Positions 16,308 to 45,002 of a stretch of DNA of 52,967 nucleotides are shown here, piece by piece. Every line of letters begins with the position of its first letter. Position 1 is the first letter of the stretch. Made by a program: the position numbers and the translations under genes. This stretch comes from Clostridiales bacterium. GTDB lineage: Bacteria > Bacillota > Clostridia > Oscillospirales > Feifaniaceae. The DNA is taken from contig JAAYBB010000061.1 of NCBI GenBank assembly GCA_012719075.1, positions 1 to 52,967 of the forward strand. The letters are read 5' to 3'. The notes beneath the pieces are model-generated. The model worked only from the letters and a program-made list of their open reading frames with translations, was not told the origin of the DNA and did not search any database.

Positions 16308-16503
16308 GTTAAACCTGCGGACAGGCGCGGCGGAGCCAAAGGGGCCGCGGCGGGCGGACAAACGCCCGTGTAAAAGGGTCCAAAGGGTGTTTTACCCGCC
16401 GGGGACCTGCTGCAGCACGCTGACAGCATCAAAATGCGAGGCGCATAGCCTGTGCCGGGCGCGCCATCCTAACGATACAGACCAAGTTTAAAGGAGGCGC
16501 GTT

Positions 16504-17175
16504 TTGAACGACACGCAAAGGGGCCTGCTCGCGCTGACCGCCACCGTCTATGTCGCCTTCAATCTGCTGGAGCTCTTCGGGCAGGCGGGCCGCCTCTCAA
16601 CGCTGCTCAAATACGCCGGCGTGCTGCTCTGCCTGTTGGTGGCGCTGCTCTCGGACACGAGGCGGGTCAACCCGGCCGACCACCGGGCGCTGCTGCTCGG
16701 GCTCACGCTGACGGCGCTGTCCGACACCTTTTTGCTCTTCAGCGAGCTGCTCTGGGTGGGACTGCTCTGCTTTTGCCTGGTCCACCTGACCTATATCAGG
16801 CGGGTGAATCCCATCGCCTTTGTCCCCCTGCTGCTGGCGACACTGGCGGTGCTGCTGCTCCTGCTGGCGGCCGAGTGGCTGGCCGTCGGCCCGCCGCTGA
16901 TCCTGTCGCTGGCCGTGCTCTACGCGCTGCTGTTTGGGCTGGACCTGCTGTTTGCGCTTCGTGCCGCCCACCTGCCACAGTCGACCCAGCGCGTGCTGCT
17001 GGCGGGGCTTGTGCTGTTCGCGCTCTGCGACCTCAACGTGGCCGTCTCTCACCTTGCCACGGGCGCGCTGCAGCAGGCGGCGTCCAGCCTGATCTGGATT
17101 TTTTACCTGCCGTCGCAGGGCCTGCTGGCGCTGAGCGGCATCCGGTTTGCGGGGGCCGCCGAGCAGCGCACTTGA
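16504..17175 (+). CDS. YhhN/TMEM86-like integral membrane protein
   Basis: The 223-residue product is almost entirely hydrophobic with about eight predicted membrane helices. Short acidic motifs buried in helices, LSDTFLLF (D74) and ALCDLNVAV near the C-terminus, resemble the conserved aspartates of the YhhN/TMEM86 family, whose animal members are lysoplasmalogenases. Bacterial members are mostly uncharacterised, and I cannot confirm hydrolase activity from sequence. The start is TTG at 16504, supported by a strong AAAGGAGG at 16490-16497. The next gene's promoter overlaps its stop codon. Codon use matches the neighbours. Confidence 0.6.
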   Translation: MNDTQRGLLALTATVYVAFNLLELFGQAGRLSTLLKYAGVLLCLLVALLSDTRRVNPADHRALLLGLTLTALSDTFLLFSELLWVGLLCFCLVHLTYIRRVNPIAFVPLLLATLAVLLLLLAAEWLAVGPPLILSLAVLYALLFGLDLLFALRAAHLPQSTQRVLLAGLVLFALCDLNVAVSHLATGALQQAASSLIWIFYLPSQGLLALSGIRFAGAAEQRT

Positions 17176-40590: not shown

Positions 40591-41196
40591 TTAACTCGGA
40601 TCGGCATTGTCGCGCAGGCTTTTGCGGGCCAGCAGGTAGCAGCCGATCATGGCCAGCGAAAAGTTGTAGCGGGTCTTGTAGAGCAGCCAGAGGCCGGCCA
40701 CAAAGACCAGCGCCGAGGCCGCGCCGCTGACCGCCTTGAGCGTGCGCTCGGCGCGGTCCAGCGACATCCGCGGCATCAGCAGGGCCTCGAGGATGCGCCC
40801 GCCGTCCAGCCCCTGAATCGGCATCAGGTTGAGGAGCGCCAGCGCGAGATTGACCACGATGAAGAAGAGAGCCCCGTCAAAGGGGCCGGTCAGCAGCACC
40901 ACCAGCGTTGTGACGACGGCCACCAGCAGGTTGACCAGCGGCCCGCTGGCCGCGACGGCCAGCTCGTCGTGGTAGGGCAGGTAGCGCAGCCCCTCGACGA
41001 CAATTTCAACGCCAAAGGGGTGCAGGTTGACCTCCTGCACGTCGAGGCCGCACTTTTTCAGCGTGCTCAGGTGCCCCATCTCGTGAAAGGCGGCCGCGAG
41101 GATGATCAGCGGCGCATAGATGCTGGCGTCGACCGCGATGAAAAAGAGCAGGATCAGCAGCAGCAGGGGACTGACGTACAGCCTGCCGAACCTCAT
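40591..41196 (-). CDS. spoIVFB: SpoIVFB-like site-2 intramembrane metalloprotease (M50)
   Basis: The 201-residue membrane protein carries the zinc motif HEMGH (H38, E39, H42) in one helix and the partner aspartate D131 in NLMPIQGLDGGR. Five or six hydrophobic segments fit the M50B family, in which SpoIVFB cleaves pro-sigma-K in the mother cell. The usual C-terminal CBS domain is absent; B. subtilis SpoIVFB has 288 residues, so this is a short form. Its ATG overlaps the stop codon of the M23 gene by 4 bases, and the pair mirrors the spoIVFA-spoIVFB operon. Whether pro-sigma-K is its substrate is inferred from context. Confidence 0.8.
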   Translation of the reverse strand: MRFGRLYVSPLLLLILLFFIAVDASIYAPLIILAAAFHEMGHLSTLKKCGLDVQEVNLHPFGVEIVVEGLRYLPYHDELAVAASGPLVNLLVAVVTTLVVLLTGPFDGALFFIVVNLALALLNLMPIQGLDGGRILEALLMPRMSLDRAERTLKAVSGAASALVFVAGLWLLYKTRYNFSLAMIGCYLLARKSLRDNADPS

Positions 41197-42284
41197 GGCG
41201 CCAGCCCCAGGTGAATGGCCGGGTCGATAAAGACGCCGTTGAGCCGCAGCTCCAGGTGGAGGTGGCTGCCGGTCGATTCGCCGGTGCTGCCCACCGTGGC
41301 GATCTTGGTGGAGGTTTTGACCTTGTCTCCCTGCTTGACCAGGATTTTGGTACAGTGCGCATACTTGGAGGTCAACCCGCCTTCGTGCTGGACCACCAGG
41401 TAGTTGCCGTAGGCGGCGTTGAAGCCCACCTCGAGGACGGCGCCGGCCGCCACGGGGCGGATGGCGCTGCCGGAGGGCGCCGCGATGTCCAGCCCGTGGT
41501 GGAAGTTTTCGCCCCCCTTTGTGCGCGCCTCGCGGGCGCCGAACACCGAGGTGATGGTGCCGCTGAGCGGGATGCTGAGCGAGACGGCCAGGGCCTGCTC
41601 TTCAAAGGTGCAGTTGTCGGGCAGCGATTCTCCGGGGACCGGCTGCGCCATGACCTCCACCTCCTGCGGCACCGGCTCCTCGCCGGCCGCCAGCGGCATG
41701 AAGCGCAGGCTGCTGAGCAGGTCGTCGGGGGCCTCAAAGCCGACGGCGGCGCTTGAAACACCGCCGTCGGTATCGTCCGGAATGTCCGGGAGGGCATCAA
41801 ATGCCGCCTGGTCAAAGTTGCTTTCGAAGGGCGCCTCCTCGGGCGCTCCGCCGGGCAGGAACATGGGCTGCGCCGGCGAGACGTCTACGGTGTAGCTGGT
41901 GTACCCGTCGGCCGCGGTGCCGTCGGCCTGGTGGACCACGGGTTCGGGCTCGGCCTTTTCAAATAGGCCGCCAAACACCTCGATCGGCTTTTCCTCGTCG
42001 AAGAGGCGGCCGATCACCGGGATGGCGCTGACCTTCTGCTGGAGCGTCTCATTGATGTCGGAGAGGTTGGAGGTCCGCTCCAGCGAGGAGATCATGCCGT
42101 CCTTGACCCCTCCGCCCACCATCGACACCAGCACCGCCAGGCAGATGATGACGGCCGAGGTGGAGAGCTGGAGGAAGAGCCGCCGGTCCATCCGCTCGCC
42201 CGTGTCCCTGCGGACCGCCGTGCGCCTTGGCGCATATGTACGGGCGGCCCTTGGCCTCTTGCTGCGCTGCGTTGTGATCCGCAA
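41193..42284 (-). CDS. spoIVFA: SpoIVFA-like membrane-anchored M23 (LytM) protein
   Basis: The 363-residue protein has a very basic cytosolic N-terminus, one membrane helix (about 37-57), a long acidic, proline-rich spacer and a C-terminal LytM domain. Zinc ligands look intact: H263 and D266 in HHGLD, H310 in YAHCT, and H341/H343 in GSHLHLE. By position just before the M50 protease it should be SpoIVFA, the regulator that holds SpoIVFB inactive until a forespore signal arrives; SpoIIQ has a similar layout and is the main alternative. The start is TTG at 42284, after GGGGG at suitable distance and 12 bases after the spoIVA stop. A start at M32 is possible but has no good ribosome-binding site. 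Confidence 0.75.
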   Translation of the reverse strand: MRITTQRSKRPRAARTYAPRRTAVRRDTGERMDRRLFLQLSTSAVIICLAVLVSMVGGGVKDGMISSLERTSNLSDINETLQQKVSAIPVIGRLFDEEKPIEVFGGLFEKAEPEPVVHQADGTAADGYTSYTVDVSPAQPMFLPGGAPEEAPFESNFDQAAFDALPDIPDDTDGGVSSAAVGFEAPDDLLSSLRFMPLAAGEEPVPQEVEVMAQPVPGESLPDNCTFEEQALAVSLSIPLSGTITSVFGAREARTKGGENFHHGLDIAAPSGSAIRPVAAGAVLEVGFNAAYGNYLVVQHEGGLTSKYAHCTKILVKQGDKVKTSTKIATVGSTGESTGSHLHLELRLNGVFIDPAIHLGLAP

Positions 42285-42296
42285 ACCCTCACCCCC

Positions 42297-43775
42297 TTAC
42301 AAGATGATGCAGATCAGTCCTCCGCTGCCCTCGTTGATGATGCGCTGCAGCGTCTCCTGCAGTTTGGCGCGCGCCTCGTCGGGTGTGCGGTTGAGCTTGC
42401 TCACCAGCCCCTCGTTGACCAGCTCGTGCAGCGACTTGCCGAAGATGTTGGAGTCCCAGATCTTCTTTGGATTTTCCTCAAAGTCCTCGAGCAGGTACTT
42501 GACCAGCTCCTCCGACTGCTTCTCGGAGCCGACGATGGGGTTGACCTCGGTCTCGATGTCGGCGCGGATCATGTGGATCGAGGGGGCCGAGGCCTTGAGG
42601 CGCACGCCGTAGCGGCTGCCCTGCTTGATGATCTCGGGCTCCTCGAGGCGAAGGTCGTCGATGTTGGGCGTCACGATGCCGTAGCCCTTGCTGTTGACCT
42701 CCATGAGGGCGTACTTGACCTTGTCGTACTGGTGTTTGACCTGGGAGAGGTCGCGCAGCAGCGAGACCATGCTCTCCTCGTCCTCGATCTCAAAGCCGGT
42801 CTCCTCGCCGATGACCTTGTAAAAGAGCCCGTCGCCCACCTGGAGGTCTACCGTGGCGCTGCCGTCCCCAAGGTTCATCGAGAGCAGCTGGACCCGTTTG
42901 AGGTTTTCGTTGCCGCTGATGTTGTTCACGGCCCCCGACACGTCGCGGATTTTGGAGATGTCGCGCGCGCTGCCCAGCAGGCTCTCATAGAGCGACTGCT
43001 TGAGCCAGTGGTCCGAGGAGAGCGTGAACAGCCAGCCCGGCATGTTGATGTTGACCTCCTTGACCGGGAATTCGAAGAGGATTTTTTCCATGATGCCTTT
43101 GATGTCGCCCTCGTTGAGGTTCATGCAGTTGAGCGGCAGCACCGGCACCTCGTAGAGCTCCGAGAGCTCGTTGGCCAGCATGACGGTGTCCTCCCGCTCG
43201 GGGTGGCGGGAGTTGAGCAGCATGATAAAGGGCTTGTTGATCTCCTTGAGCTCCGAGACCACGCGCAGCTCGCTGGGCTCGTAGTCCTCGCGGTCGATCT
43301 CGCCGATCGAGCCGTCGGTCGTGATGACCAGCCCGATCGTGGAGTGGTCCTTGATGACCTTGCGGGTGCCGATCTCGGCGGCCTGGTCAAAGGGGATCTC
43401 GGTGTCGGACCAGGGGGTCCTGACCATGCGGGGCAGGTCGTTTTCGCTGTTTCCCAGCGCCCCGTTGACCATGTAGCCGACACAGTCGATCAGGCGGACC
43501 TTCAGGAGGGCGTTTTCGGACAGGTTGATCTCCACCGCCTCGTTGGGCACAAATTTGGGCTCGGTGGTCATGATGGTTCGGCCGGCCGCGCTTTGCGGCA
43601 GCTCATCCACCGCGCGTTCCCGCTTGTTCTCGTTGGCGATGTTGGGCAGCACCAGCGTCTCCATGAAGCGCTTGATAAAGGTTGACTTTCCGGTCCGGAC
43701 CGGCCCCACCACGCCGATGTAAATATCCCCGTCGGTGCGGCGGGAGATATCTTCGTAGATGCTGTATTTGTCCAT
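42297..43775 (-). CDS. spoIVA: Stage IV sporulation protein A (coat basement-layer ATPase)
   Basis: The 492-residue product has the same length as B. subtilis SpoIVA. It is a TRAFAC-type ATPase that polymerises on the outer forespore membrane as the base of the spore coat, recruited by SpoVM. The P-loop GPVRTGKS at 24-31 puts K30 at the known catalytic lysine. MTTEPKFVPNEAVEI, DCVGYMVNGALG and VNPIVGSEKQSEELVKYLL are further diagnostic stretches, and the C-terminus GGLICIIL matches the family. GAGGGGG precedes the ATG. A sigma-E-like promoter lies about 30 bases upstream, as expected for a mother-cell gene. Two further genes follow in the same direction with a 12-base gap. Confidence 0.98.
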   Translation of the reverse strand: MDKYSIYEDISRRTDGDIYIGVVGPVRTGKSTFIKRFMETLVLPNIANENKRERAVDELPQSAAGRTIMTTEPKFVPNEAVEINLSENALLKVRLIDCVGYMVNGALGNSENDLPRMVRTPWSDTEIPFDQAAEIGTRKVIKDHSTIGLVITTDGSIGEIDREDYEPSELRVVSELKEINKPFIMLLNSRHPEREDTVMLANELSELYEVPVLPLNCMNLNEGDIKGIMEKILFEFPVKEVNINMPGWLFTLSSDHWLKQSLYESLLGSARDISKIRDVSGAVNNISGNENLKRVQLLSMNLGDGSATVDLQVGDGLFYKVIGEETGFEIEDEESMVSLLRDLSQVKHQYDKVKYALMEVNSKGYGIVTPNIDDLRLEEPEIIKQGSRYGVRLKASAPSIHMIRADIETEVNPIVGSEKQSEELVKYLLEDFEENPKKIWDSNIFGKSLHELVNEGLVSKLNRTPDEARAKLQETLQRIINEGSGGLICIIL

Positions 43776-43803: not shown

Positions 43804-43832
43804 AGTATATTGGTCGGGGGAACAAGATATTA
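43804..43832 (-). promoter_or_regulatory. Sigma-E-like promoter of spoIVA
   Basis: On the minus strand TAATATC (43826-43832) and AATATACT (43804-43811) are 14 bases apart. Against the B. subtilis sigma-E consensus (KMATATT, 14-15 bases, CATACAHT) this matches 6 of 7 and 6 of 8 positions. It does not fit a sigma-A promoter at this spacing. Confidence 0.65.
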
Positions 43833-43882: not shown

Positions 43883-44263
43883 TTAAAAAACATTGGACAT
43901 ATTGATGCGGTCGGCCTCGTAAATCTGCCGAAAGCGGCTTTCCAGCAGCCCGCATTCAATATAGTATTCGGGCAGCTCCCCCTCGCGCAGGCAGGAGAGC
44001 GCCCTTGTGAGGCTCTCGACGATGGCGTCGACGCCCAGGTGGTTGTCGGTGACGTTGAGGTAGAGGATGTGGCGCTCCACCTCGTTCCCGAGCCGCTCCA
44101 TCGCGATCAGCGCGGCGTCGATCTCACCGGCGCGCGCCAGCGTGACGGCCTCCGCGAGCTGCCGGCGCAGCCCGTCGCTCATGTTGCGGCAGTAGTACAG
44201 GTTGCAAAGGCAGGCGCAGAGCAGCAGGCAGAGCGCCAGTACGGCCATGAGGAATCGTTTCAT
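43883..44263 (-). CDS. DUF4363 family protein
   Basis: The 126-residue product has an N-terminal hydrophobic segment (MAVLALCLLLCACLCNLYYC) that acts as a signal anchor or, with a cysteine at its end, possibly a lipoprotein signal. The rest is helical with the ARAGEIDAALIAMERLGNEVERH and VESLTRALSCLREGE segments typical of DUF4363, a family commonly encoded next to DUF421 proteins in Clostridia. Its start codon overlaps the DUF421 stop codon in ATGA, so the two are translationally coupled. Function is unknown; the sigma-G-like promoter of the operon suggests the forespore. Confidence 0.78.
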   Translation of the reverse strand: MKRFLMAVLALCLLLCACLCNLYYCRNMSDGLRRQLAEAVTLARAGEIDAALIAMERLGNEVERHILYLNVTDNHLGVDAIVESLTRALSCLREGELPEYYIECGLLESRFRQIYEADRINMSNVF

Positions 44264-44937
44264 GAGATCTCCTTTTTCACAAGCTCCACCAGGTTGCCCT
44301 TGGCGTCGACGCTGAGGTAAAACACCTGGTCGAGGGTGAGCCGTCGCTGCTGGATCATGGTCAGCACGGCCGCCTCGTCCATGGAGAGCGCCTGCGCGTC
44401 CTTCCTGTTGATCTTGCCGTCGGACACCAGCATGCGCACAACGCCGACATCCTTGGAGGGGATGGACAGCTCCTTCTTGGTGGGGGGAGAGGCCTCGGGC
44501 CGCAGAAAGACCGAGAGCTTGCCGCCGGTCTCGAGCACGGCGTAGGAGATGTCGGCGATGCGGTTGATCTTCTGCAGGCGCAGCTCCTCGCAGAGGTCGG
44601 ACAGCGAAAAGCGCTGGCGGCGCATCTCGGCCTGGTTGAGGCGGCCGTCCTCGACCACGATGCTGGAGTTGCCCGAGAGCAGCTTCTGAAAGGGCGGACA
44701 CTTGAGCGACAGGAAGGAGAGGATGACCTCCAGCGAGACCAGCACGATGATCGAGATCAGCCCATAGATCATCGGAATGCCGTTGCTCTGCATCGGCACC
44801 GCCGCCACCTCGGCGATCAGCAGTGTGATGACCAGCTCGGTGGGCTGCATTTCGCCGATCTGACGCTTGCCCATCAGCCTCAGCGCGATGATGATGGAGG
44901 CATAGAGGATGATGGTCCGAACAAACACAATGCCCAT
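44260..44937 (-). CDS. DUF421 (YetF-like) membrane protein
   Basis: The 225-residue protein has three N-terminal membrane helices (RTIILYASIIIALRLMGKRQIGE is the family start) and a cytosolic C-terminal domain with LNQAEMRRQRFSLSDLCEELR. This is the DUF421/YetF family. YetF-type proteins in B. subtilis and relatives, including the spore-resistance protein 2Duf, occur in the spore inner membrane, so a role in spore resistance or inner-membrane properties is plausible. CAGGGGGTG precedes the ATG. It is the first gene of a two-gene operon behind a sigma-G-like promoter and divergent from rplS. Confidence 0.88.
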   Translation of the reverse strand: MGIVFVRTIILYASIIIALRLMGKRQIGEMQPTELVITLLIAEVAAVPMQSNGIPMIYGLISIIVLVSLEVILSFLSLKCPPFQKLLSGNSSIVVEDGRLNQAEMRRQRFSLSDLCEELRLQKINRIADISYAVLETGGKLSVFLRPEASPPTKKELSIPSKDVGVVRMLVSDGKINRKDAQALSMDEAAVLTMIQQRRLTLDQVFYLSVDAKGNLVELVKKEIS

Positions 44938-44971
44938 GCGGCACCCCCTGAAAAGACGGTTTTTTCTGCCC

Positions 44972-45002
44972 TAGTATGCCCTTGGCGGCGTCGAATTATT
45001 GG
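44972..45002 (-). promoter_or_regulatory. Sigma-G-like promoter of the DUF421-DUF4363 operon
   Basis: On the minus strand CCAATA (44997-45002) and CATACTA (44972-44978) are 18 bases apart. CATACTA is the exact B. subtilis sigma-G -10, and the -35 matches TGAATA at 4 of 6 positions. No sigma-A alternative with proper spacing is evident. Confidence 0.6.

Follow-up and report, generated by a model that had tools for sequence, protein, structure and literature searches.

A gene pair encoding a DUF421 (YetF-type) membrane protein and a DUF4363 protein, carried by a member of the Feifaniaceae, is probably expressed in the forespore as a coupled unit, the products of which would form a two-part inner-membrane complex that raises the resistance of the spore and curbs its early germination. 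The pair lies in the window, a term used here for the whole stretch of 52,967 nucleotides that was analysed (Clostridiales bacterium, lineage Oscillospirales; Feifaniaceae; assembly GCA_012719075.1, contig JAAYBB010000061.1, positions 1-52,967 of the forward strand). The observations that bear on this reading are the order and overlap of the genes, the families of the two proteins, the conservation of a promoter pattern, a link to sporulation genes and the predicted folds. A first-pass annotation of the same DNA had placed a DUF421 gene and a DUF4363 gene between positions 43,883 and 45,002 without giving a strand, and both were found there, on the minus strand (Table 1).

Table 1. Coordinates of the DUF421-DUF4363 gene pair, its candidate expression signals and the adjacent spoIVA gene.
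Feature	Position in window	Strand	Details and basis
Candidate forespore-type promoter, CCAATA-N18-CATACTA	44972-45002	minus	34 nt before the DUF421 start codon
-35 element, CCAATA	44997-45002	minus	part of the candidate promoter
GGG	44979-44981	minus	precedes the -10 element
-10 element, CATACTA	44972-44978	minus	part of the candidate promoter
Likely ribosome-binding site, AGGGGGTG	44942-44949	minus	read from sequence
DUF421 (YetF-type) membrane protein gene, 225 aa	44260-44937	minus	PF04239 and fold matches
ATGA overlap, DUF421 stop / DUF4363 start	44260-44263	minus	4 bases; sequence
DUF4363 protein gene, 126 aa	43883-44263	minus	PF14276, hydropathy, model
sigE-like site, TAATATC-N14-AATATACT	43804-43832	minus	28 nt before spoIVA
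spoIVA	42297-43775	minus	TIGR02836, 769 bits; outside the proposed unit

From a structural point of view, the first protein is a member of the YetF family, as the Pfam domain, the C-terminal YetF fold and N-terminal membrane helices were all found. It matches PF04239 with 98.4 bits (cut-off 23.6), its profile matches the YetF structure 3c6f with an E value of 1.2e-38, and its model (pLDDT 88.6, pTM 0.59), which also matches 3c6f by Foldseek (E 1e-10), consists of membrane helices followed by a two-lobed YetF domain, with modelled helices at residues 2-21, 32-45 and 57-79 and hydrophobic stretches at 1-23 and 49-83. DUF421 is its sole domain at E 0.001, DUF1657 being absent. The second protein matches PF14276 with 46.2 bits (gathering cut-off 27.5), has one membrane span by hydropathy, and is modelled (pLDDT 90.2, pTM 0.81) as a single long helix that leaves the membrane and continues into a bundle of four helices, which the positively charged N-terminus suggests to lie outside the membrane. 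Its conservation is sparse, being mainly limited to W at position 62 (V in the window protein), H75 and N124, with no obvious catalytic set. None of 837 Foldseek matches to the DUF4363 model reached E 0.001, and the best VIA row, the LytS sensor domain 5xsj_L (Z 13.6, rmsd 2.0 over 100), stands at the background level of helical bundles. A profile search against solved structures returned 38 rows at E up to 1, the best of which were designed helical proteins (E 1e-6 and weaker) and were read as a match of composition; kinship with the N-terminal region of YpeB was considered as well, and none was found (hhalign probability 0.7). The ATGA overlap would allow translational coupling of the two genes. 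Upstream of DUF421 and divergent from it lie rplS, encoding ribosomal protein L19, and a signal peptidase gene, and the next gene downstream of DUF4363 is spoIVA.

DUF4363 is seldom found apart from DUF421. The order sample comprises 147 genomes, of which 101 have a detected DUF4363, 129 DUF421 and 128 spoIVA; in 98 of the 101, DUF4363 immediately follows DUF421, and both are read from one strand. When named genomes were searched with an alignment of DUF421, 79 of the best 80 loci showed the same arrangement, the exception being Desulfoscipio geothermicus; Caloramator, Caldicoprobacter and Anaerobacterium are among the carriers in the matches listed, and C. difficile is not among the best 80. 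Across the phylum, the pair is present in 28 of 32 loci (the 12 best of the search and 20 picked by hand), the remaining four comprising three whose fetched stretch holds no DUF421 match (L233, L234 and L240) and one whose DUF421 match is on the other strand (L231). Overlapping or abutting genes are seen in 63 of the 98 pairs of the order sample and in 58 of 77 named loci. With the plasmid search, no match to the DUF4363 protein was obtained at E 0.001. As for the control genomes, DUF421 is also found in E. coli and Lactococcus, and B. subtilis has one DUF4363 match, below the curated cut-off.

Genomes lacking a Pfam-detected DUF4363 make up 38 of the 138 order genomes with a sporulation marker, and 28 of these 38 carry DUF421. 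When 19 of the 28 were examined with our own profile, a diverged DUF4363 was recognised behind DUF421 in eight (E < 1e-4) and none was found there in the other 11 at E 1e-4. A second line of the pair is seen in phylum loci L229, L230, L232, L235 and L236, where DUF421 is of a different type and the gene behind it encodes a diverged DUF4363, which Pfam confirms in L230. The trees of the two proteins split these two lines identically, with supports of 0.98 and 0.83; within type 1, the two trees agree at r 0.65, a value that includes shared descent and was not counted as evidence of binding.

Since the promoter match in the window's own genome is barely above chance when taken alone, and is weak evidence as such, the case beyond chance rests on comparison. 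The site is indeed built as had been claimed, with CCAATA 18 bases from CATACTA, and scores 16.8 of 18.8 on a sigG-type consensus that is that of Bacillus and may not be that of the host. In the 1.88 Mb assembly, CCAATA and CATACTA are found 17 to 19 nt apart only at this one place, and the relaxed pattern HATR-N18-CATAHTA has four matches, against three for the reversed control. Within the 53 kb window, three sites reach the sigG-type score of the DUF421 site and two its sigF-type score, itself counted in both cases. Of three known forespore genes of this genome, two for SASPs and spoVAC, none reaches 15 on either the sigG or the sigF type within 130 nt, although their starts may be chosen wrongly and their promoters may lie farther away; as these genes are devoid of a strong match, the organism's own sigG/sigF consensus is unconfirmed.

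The four relaxed matches include the DUF421-DUF4363 site itself. Another (TATAA-N17-CATACTA) is located 101 nt before the start of ypeB (L035:8-1529, minus strand), and a third, a good sigG-type site (L036:1501-1529), 45 nt before the gene of a 58 aa protein without Pfam match, which is followed by a Coat_F-domain gene (L036:1575-2041 region); after the fourth, no gene was recognised by eye. The best sigG-type score in the window belongs to GCATA-N17-CATCCTA (16443-16471, plus strand), 32 nt before an open reading frame of 223 aa (16504-17175) that appears membrane-like by eye and has no Pfam match.

For the comparison, consensuses of Bacillus σ factors were scored over the 110 nt that precede DUF421, with dinucleotide shuffles as the reference. 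In the order sample, 97 of the 98 upstream regions were kept (G094 was dropped at a contig end) and the removal of 16 near-duplicates left 81, in which the forespore consensuses gave z 20.1 (sigF type) and 16.8 (sigG type), as opposed to 6.4 for sigE, 2.0 for sigK, 0.2 for sigH and 0.4 for sigA; control versions of sigG gave 6.2 and 1.8 with wrong spacings (the former with 23-25) and 1.3 when reversed. The 79 named loci, whose last 60 nt are never identical to the order set and among which near-duplicates were kept, gave z 23.3 for sigF, 13.3 for sigG, 7.0 for sigE, 2.5 for sigK and -1.0 for sigA, and the 28 phylum loci, scored against mononucleotide shuffles, 9.2 for sigF, 4.7 for sigG and 0.0 for sigA. 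It is nevertheless important to stress that, given the sigE values of the first two sets and the higher wrong-spacing value, part of each z must stem from a -10 or composition signal alone. Promoter conservation upstream of DUF421-DUF4363 pairs, the check that the first-pass annotation had proposed, is thus seen over the sets of 81 and 79 loci, with the forespore consensuses enriched and sigA not.

Real upstream regions were compared too, using as controls 206 upstream regions of other open reading frames from 75 of the named loci (at least 150 codons and a ribosome-site match, possibly not all real genes). The sigF-type score is higher before DUF421 than in these controls (Mann-Whitney p 1.5e-21), with 49 of 77 DUF421 upstream regions reaching at least 17.4 against 14 of the 206; the sigE-type score is also higher (p 5e-8), the sigA score is not, and the DUF421 upstream regions are richer in A+T (0.57 against 0.52). 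In the order set, 34 of the 81 upstream regions reach a sigG-type score of at least 15 on the forward strand, compared with 11 on the reverse strand, and a G three bases before the -10 element, at a position that was not selected for, is present in 65% of those 34 sites and 36% of the 11. Closer to the window, the loss of CATACTA in close orthologues had been named as a result that would refute the earlier reading. The exact heptamer is in fact kept in only one of five family relatives with the pair (G074), but the forespore-type pattern mostly stays while the -10 box varies: the boxes read AATACTA in G017, CATACTT in G101 and CAAACTG in G088, and the upstream region of G058 has no CATACTA-like box, its best scores being 13.8 (sigG type) and 16.4 (sigF type).

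As to which forespore factor is concerned, the -10 region in the window reads GGGCATACTA, which fits both the sigG form and the sigF form GGnnAnAHTR. The sigF-type consensus fits the DUF421 site as well as the sigG type, or better, and it is the more enriched of the two in both comparison sets. The earlier term "sigma-G pattern" should therefore read "forespore sigF/sigG": its forespore-type part is upheld by the enrichment in relatives, and the specific attribution to sigma-G is not, as sigF fits at least equally. Hence, the promoter upstream of the pair would be of the forespore type, with sigF and sigG undivided. The situation resembles that in C. difficile, where CD1789 has been reported to be controlled by SigG and not by SigF, though a SigF-type consensus was proposed for it (PMC7438776).

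The distribution of the pair also tracks that of sporulation genes, though the pair is not needed everywhere. In the order sample, 19 genomes have no spoIVA in the assembly, of which 10 have spoIIIAE. Of the 138 genomes that have at least one of these two markers, 128 carry DUF421 and 100 carry DUF4363, whereas of the nine with neither marker one carries each gene (Fisher 8e-8 for DUF421 and 4e-4 for DUF4363), these p-values being guides, as the sample genomes are not independent. The sole marker-negative carrier is the same 77%-complete genome for both genes, and four of the nine marker-negative genomes belong to one genus. Both states are seen in one genus: its sole spoIVA-positive member carries the pair, and the two genes are absent from four members that lack both markers. 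In a phylum sample of 129 genomes, for which 95% completeness was requested (the window's own genome has 93%), DUF4363 is present in 68 of 114 genomes with spoIVA and in one of 15 without (p 1.2e-4). The 46 spoIVA-positive genomes without DUF4363 indicate that sporulation does not generally require it.

Part of the explanation of why the spore inner membrane is so rigid and tight has recently come, in Bacillus, from the YetF family. There, YetF and its homologues are expressed in the forespore under sigF or sigG and reside in the spore inner membrane; the crystallised YetF domain is a ring-shaped tetramer; the loss of any YetF homologue lowers heat and chemical resistance, the loss of various homologues increases membrane fluidity, and the loss of YetF and YrbG leads to spontaneous germination, pointing to the SpoVA channel (PMC10126465, PMC12548441). 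The claim of the first-pass annotation that DUF421 relatives act on the spore inner membrane finds support in this work, and a C. difficile YetF homologue belongs to the spore inner-membrane proteome (PMC10126465). The window protein resembles the YetF/YdfS family (YetF, YdfS, YkjA, YrbG and YdfR) in its DUF421 fold and similar length; the descriptions of that family in the relevant parts of these papers name no DUF4363 partner, whereas the window has an overlapping DUF4363 gene (PMC10126465, PMC12548441). Another relative is 2Duf of spoVA2mob, likewise a DUF421 membrane protein tied to spore heat resistance, but one that carries DUF1657 and sits with spoVA genes (PMC10126465), unlike the window protein, which neighbours spoIVA and rplS.

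CD1789-CD1788 of C. difficile is a listed operon with the DUF421 gene first, as in the window, and its expression is lower in a sigG mutant, with ratios of 0.61 for CD1789 and 0.43 for CD1788 (PMC3789822, Table 1). The CD1789 promoter is listed as sigG (PMC3789822) and was later called sigF-like (PMC7438776). CD1789, and not CD1788, is marked as detected in spores (PMC3789822), and a peptide of CD1788 turned up when the proteomes of cells and spores were later analysed (PMC6174930); CD1788 is referred to only as "conserved hypothetical" (PMC3789822, PMC7438776). The idea of a forespore DUF421 protein is already published, as is, for C. difficile, a DUF421-first operon with sigG-dependent expression. 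DUF4363 as a near-constant partner is under-described, and the word itself was not found in the open-licence PMC papers searched.

In the reading that we favour, DUF421 and DUF4363 would be expressed in the forespore as one translationally coupled unit and placed in the spore inner membrane as a two-part complex. DUF421 would contribute membrane helices and a core-facing, ring-forming domain, and DUF4363, its dedicated partner, would add a span and, on the other side of the membrane towards the cortex, a four-helix bundle. The complex would make the inner membrane more rigid and keep the proteins in it, the SpoVA channel among them, closed and dormant, a state from which higher heat and chemical resistance and the prevention of early germination would follow. 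The tetrameric ring, the location and the effects on resistance, fluidity and spontaneous germination are taken over from the Bacillus papers. By analogy, clostridial DUF421 likely acts as Bacillus YetF does, and we infer the same for the pair; it is plausible that DUF4363 is the partner of DUF421 across the membrane, the binding of the two proteins and the facing of each being presumed. Clostridia would in that case gain a second, unstudied component, which follows DUF421 directly in 98 of the 101 order genomes that carry it. The modest C. difficile ratios and the sporulating genomes without DUF4363 were counted against this reading. A more specific version, which can be put forward only tentatively, is that DUF4363 is a dedicated second subunit: sitting on the cortex side, its external bundle would cap or clamp the YetF-type ring, and the two proteins would together make a trans-membrane lock that restrains membrane fluidity and the SpoVA channel until it is released at germination. 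On this view, each of the two diverged lines of the pair would have its own version of the lock.

Forespore expression would also be compatible with a DUF4363 that serves germination proteins as a sensor or an assembly factor and shares no more than its regulation with DUF421. Some extracytoplasmic sensor domains are built in this way, from a single span and an external bundle of four helices, the best VIA row is such a domain (albeit at background level), and the few conserved positions without an obvious catalytic set agree with such a role; this is nonetheless unlikely, since DUF4363 occurs almost exclusively behind DUF421 and two sequence-distinct lines of the pair exist in which the trees of both proteins split identically. 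Quite unlikely is the view of the pair as a general unit of membrane or stress function that is expressed during growth, with the CATACTA box arising by chance: DUF421 does occur in non-sporing control genomes, the own-genome motif count hardly exceeds its control and the SASP genes of this genome lack the consensus, but sigA is not enriched upstream of DUF421, and DUF4363 is present in just one of the nine marker-negative genomes of the order sample and one of the 15 spoIVA-negative ones of the phylum sample.

The neighbourhood in the window suggests yet another assignment, to a sigE mother-cell operon comprising the pair, spoIVA and the M23 and M50 genes behind it, with action in the mother cell or the outer forespore membrane. 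All of these genes share a strand, the gap between DUF4363 and spoIVA measures 107 nt, and the sigE type exceeds shuffles upstream of DUF421. It is very improbable, however, as the forespore consensuses score far above sigE at that position and C. difficile CD1789 depends on sigG (PMC3789822, PMC7438776). Furthermore, adjacency to spoIVA is present in four of the 90 order genomes with the pair and a spoIVA match (G000, G017, G088 and G101), all of them from the window's family, in which G058 and G074 have the pair without this adjacency, and spoIVA has its own sigE-like site, scoring 20.4 of 26.4 on the consensus used. For the same two reasons, the adjacency to spoIVA that had been pointed out earlier, real as it is in the window, says little about the pair. 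Directly behind spoIVA on the minus strand (40591-42284), a gene with an M23 peptidase domain is followed by one with an M50 domain, an order that we take to recall spoIVFA-spoIVFB.
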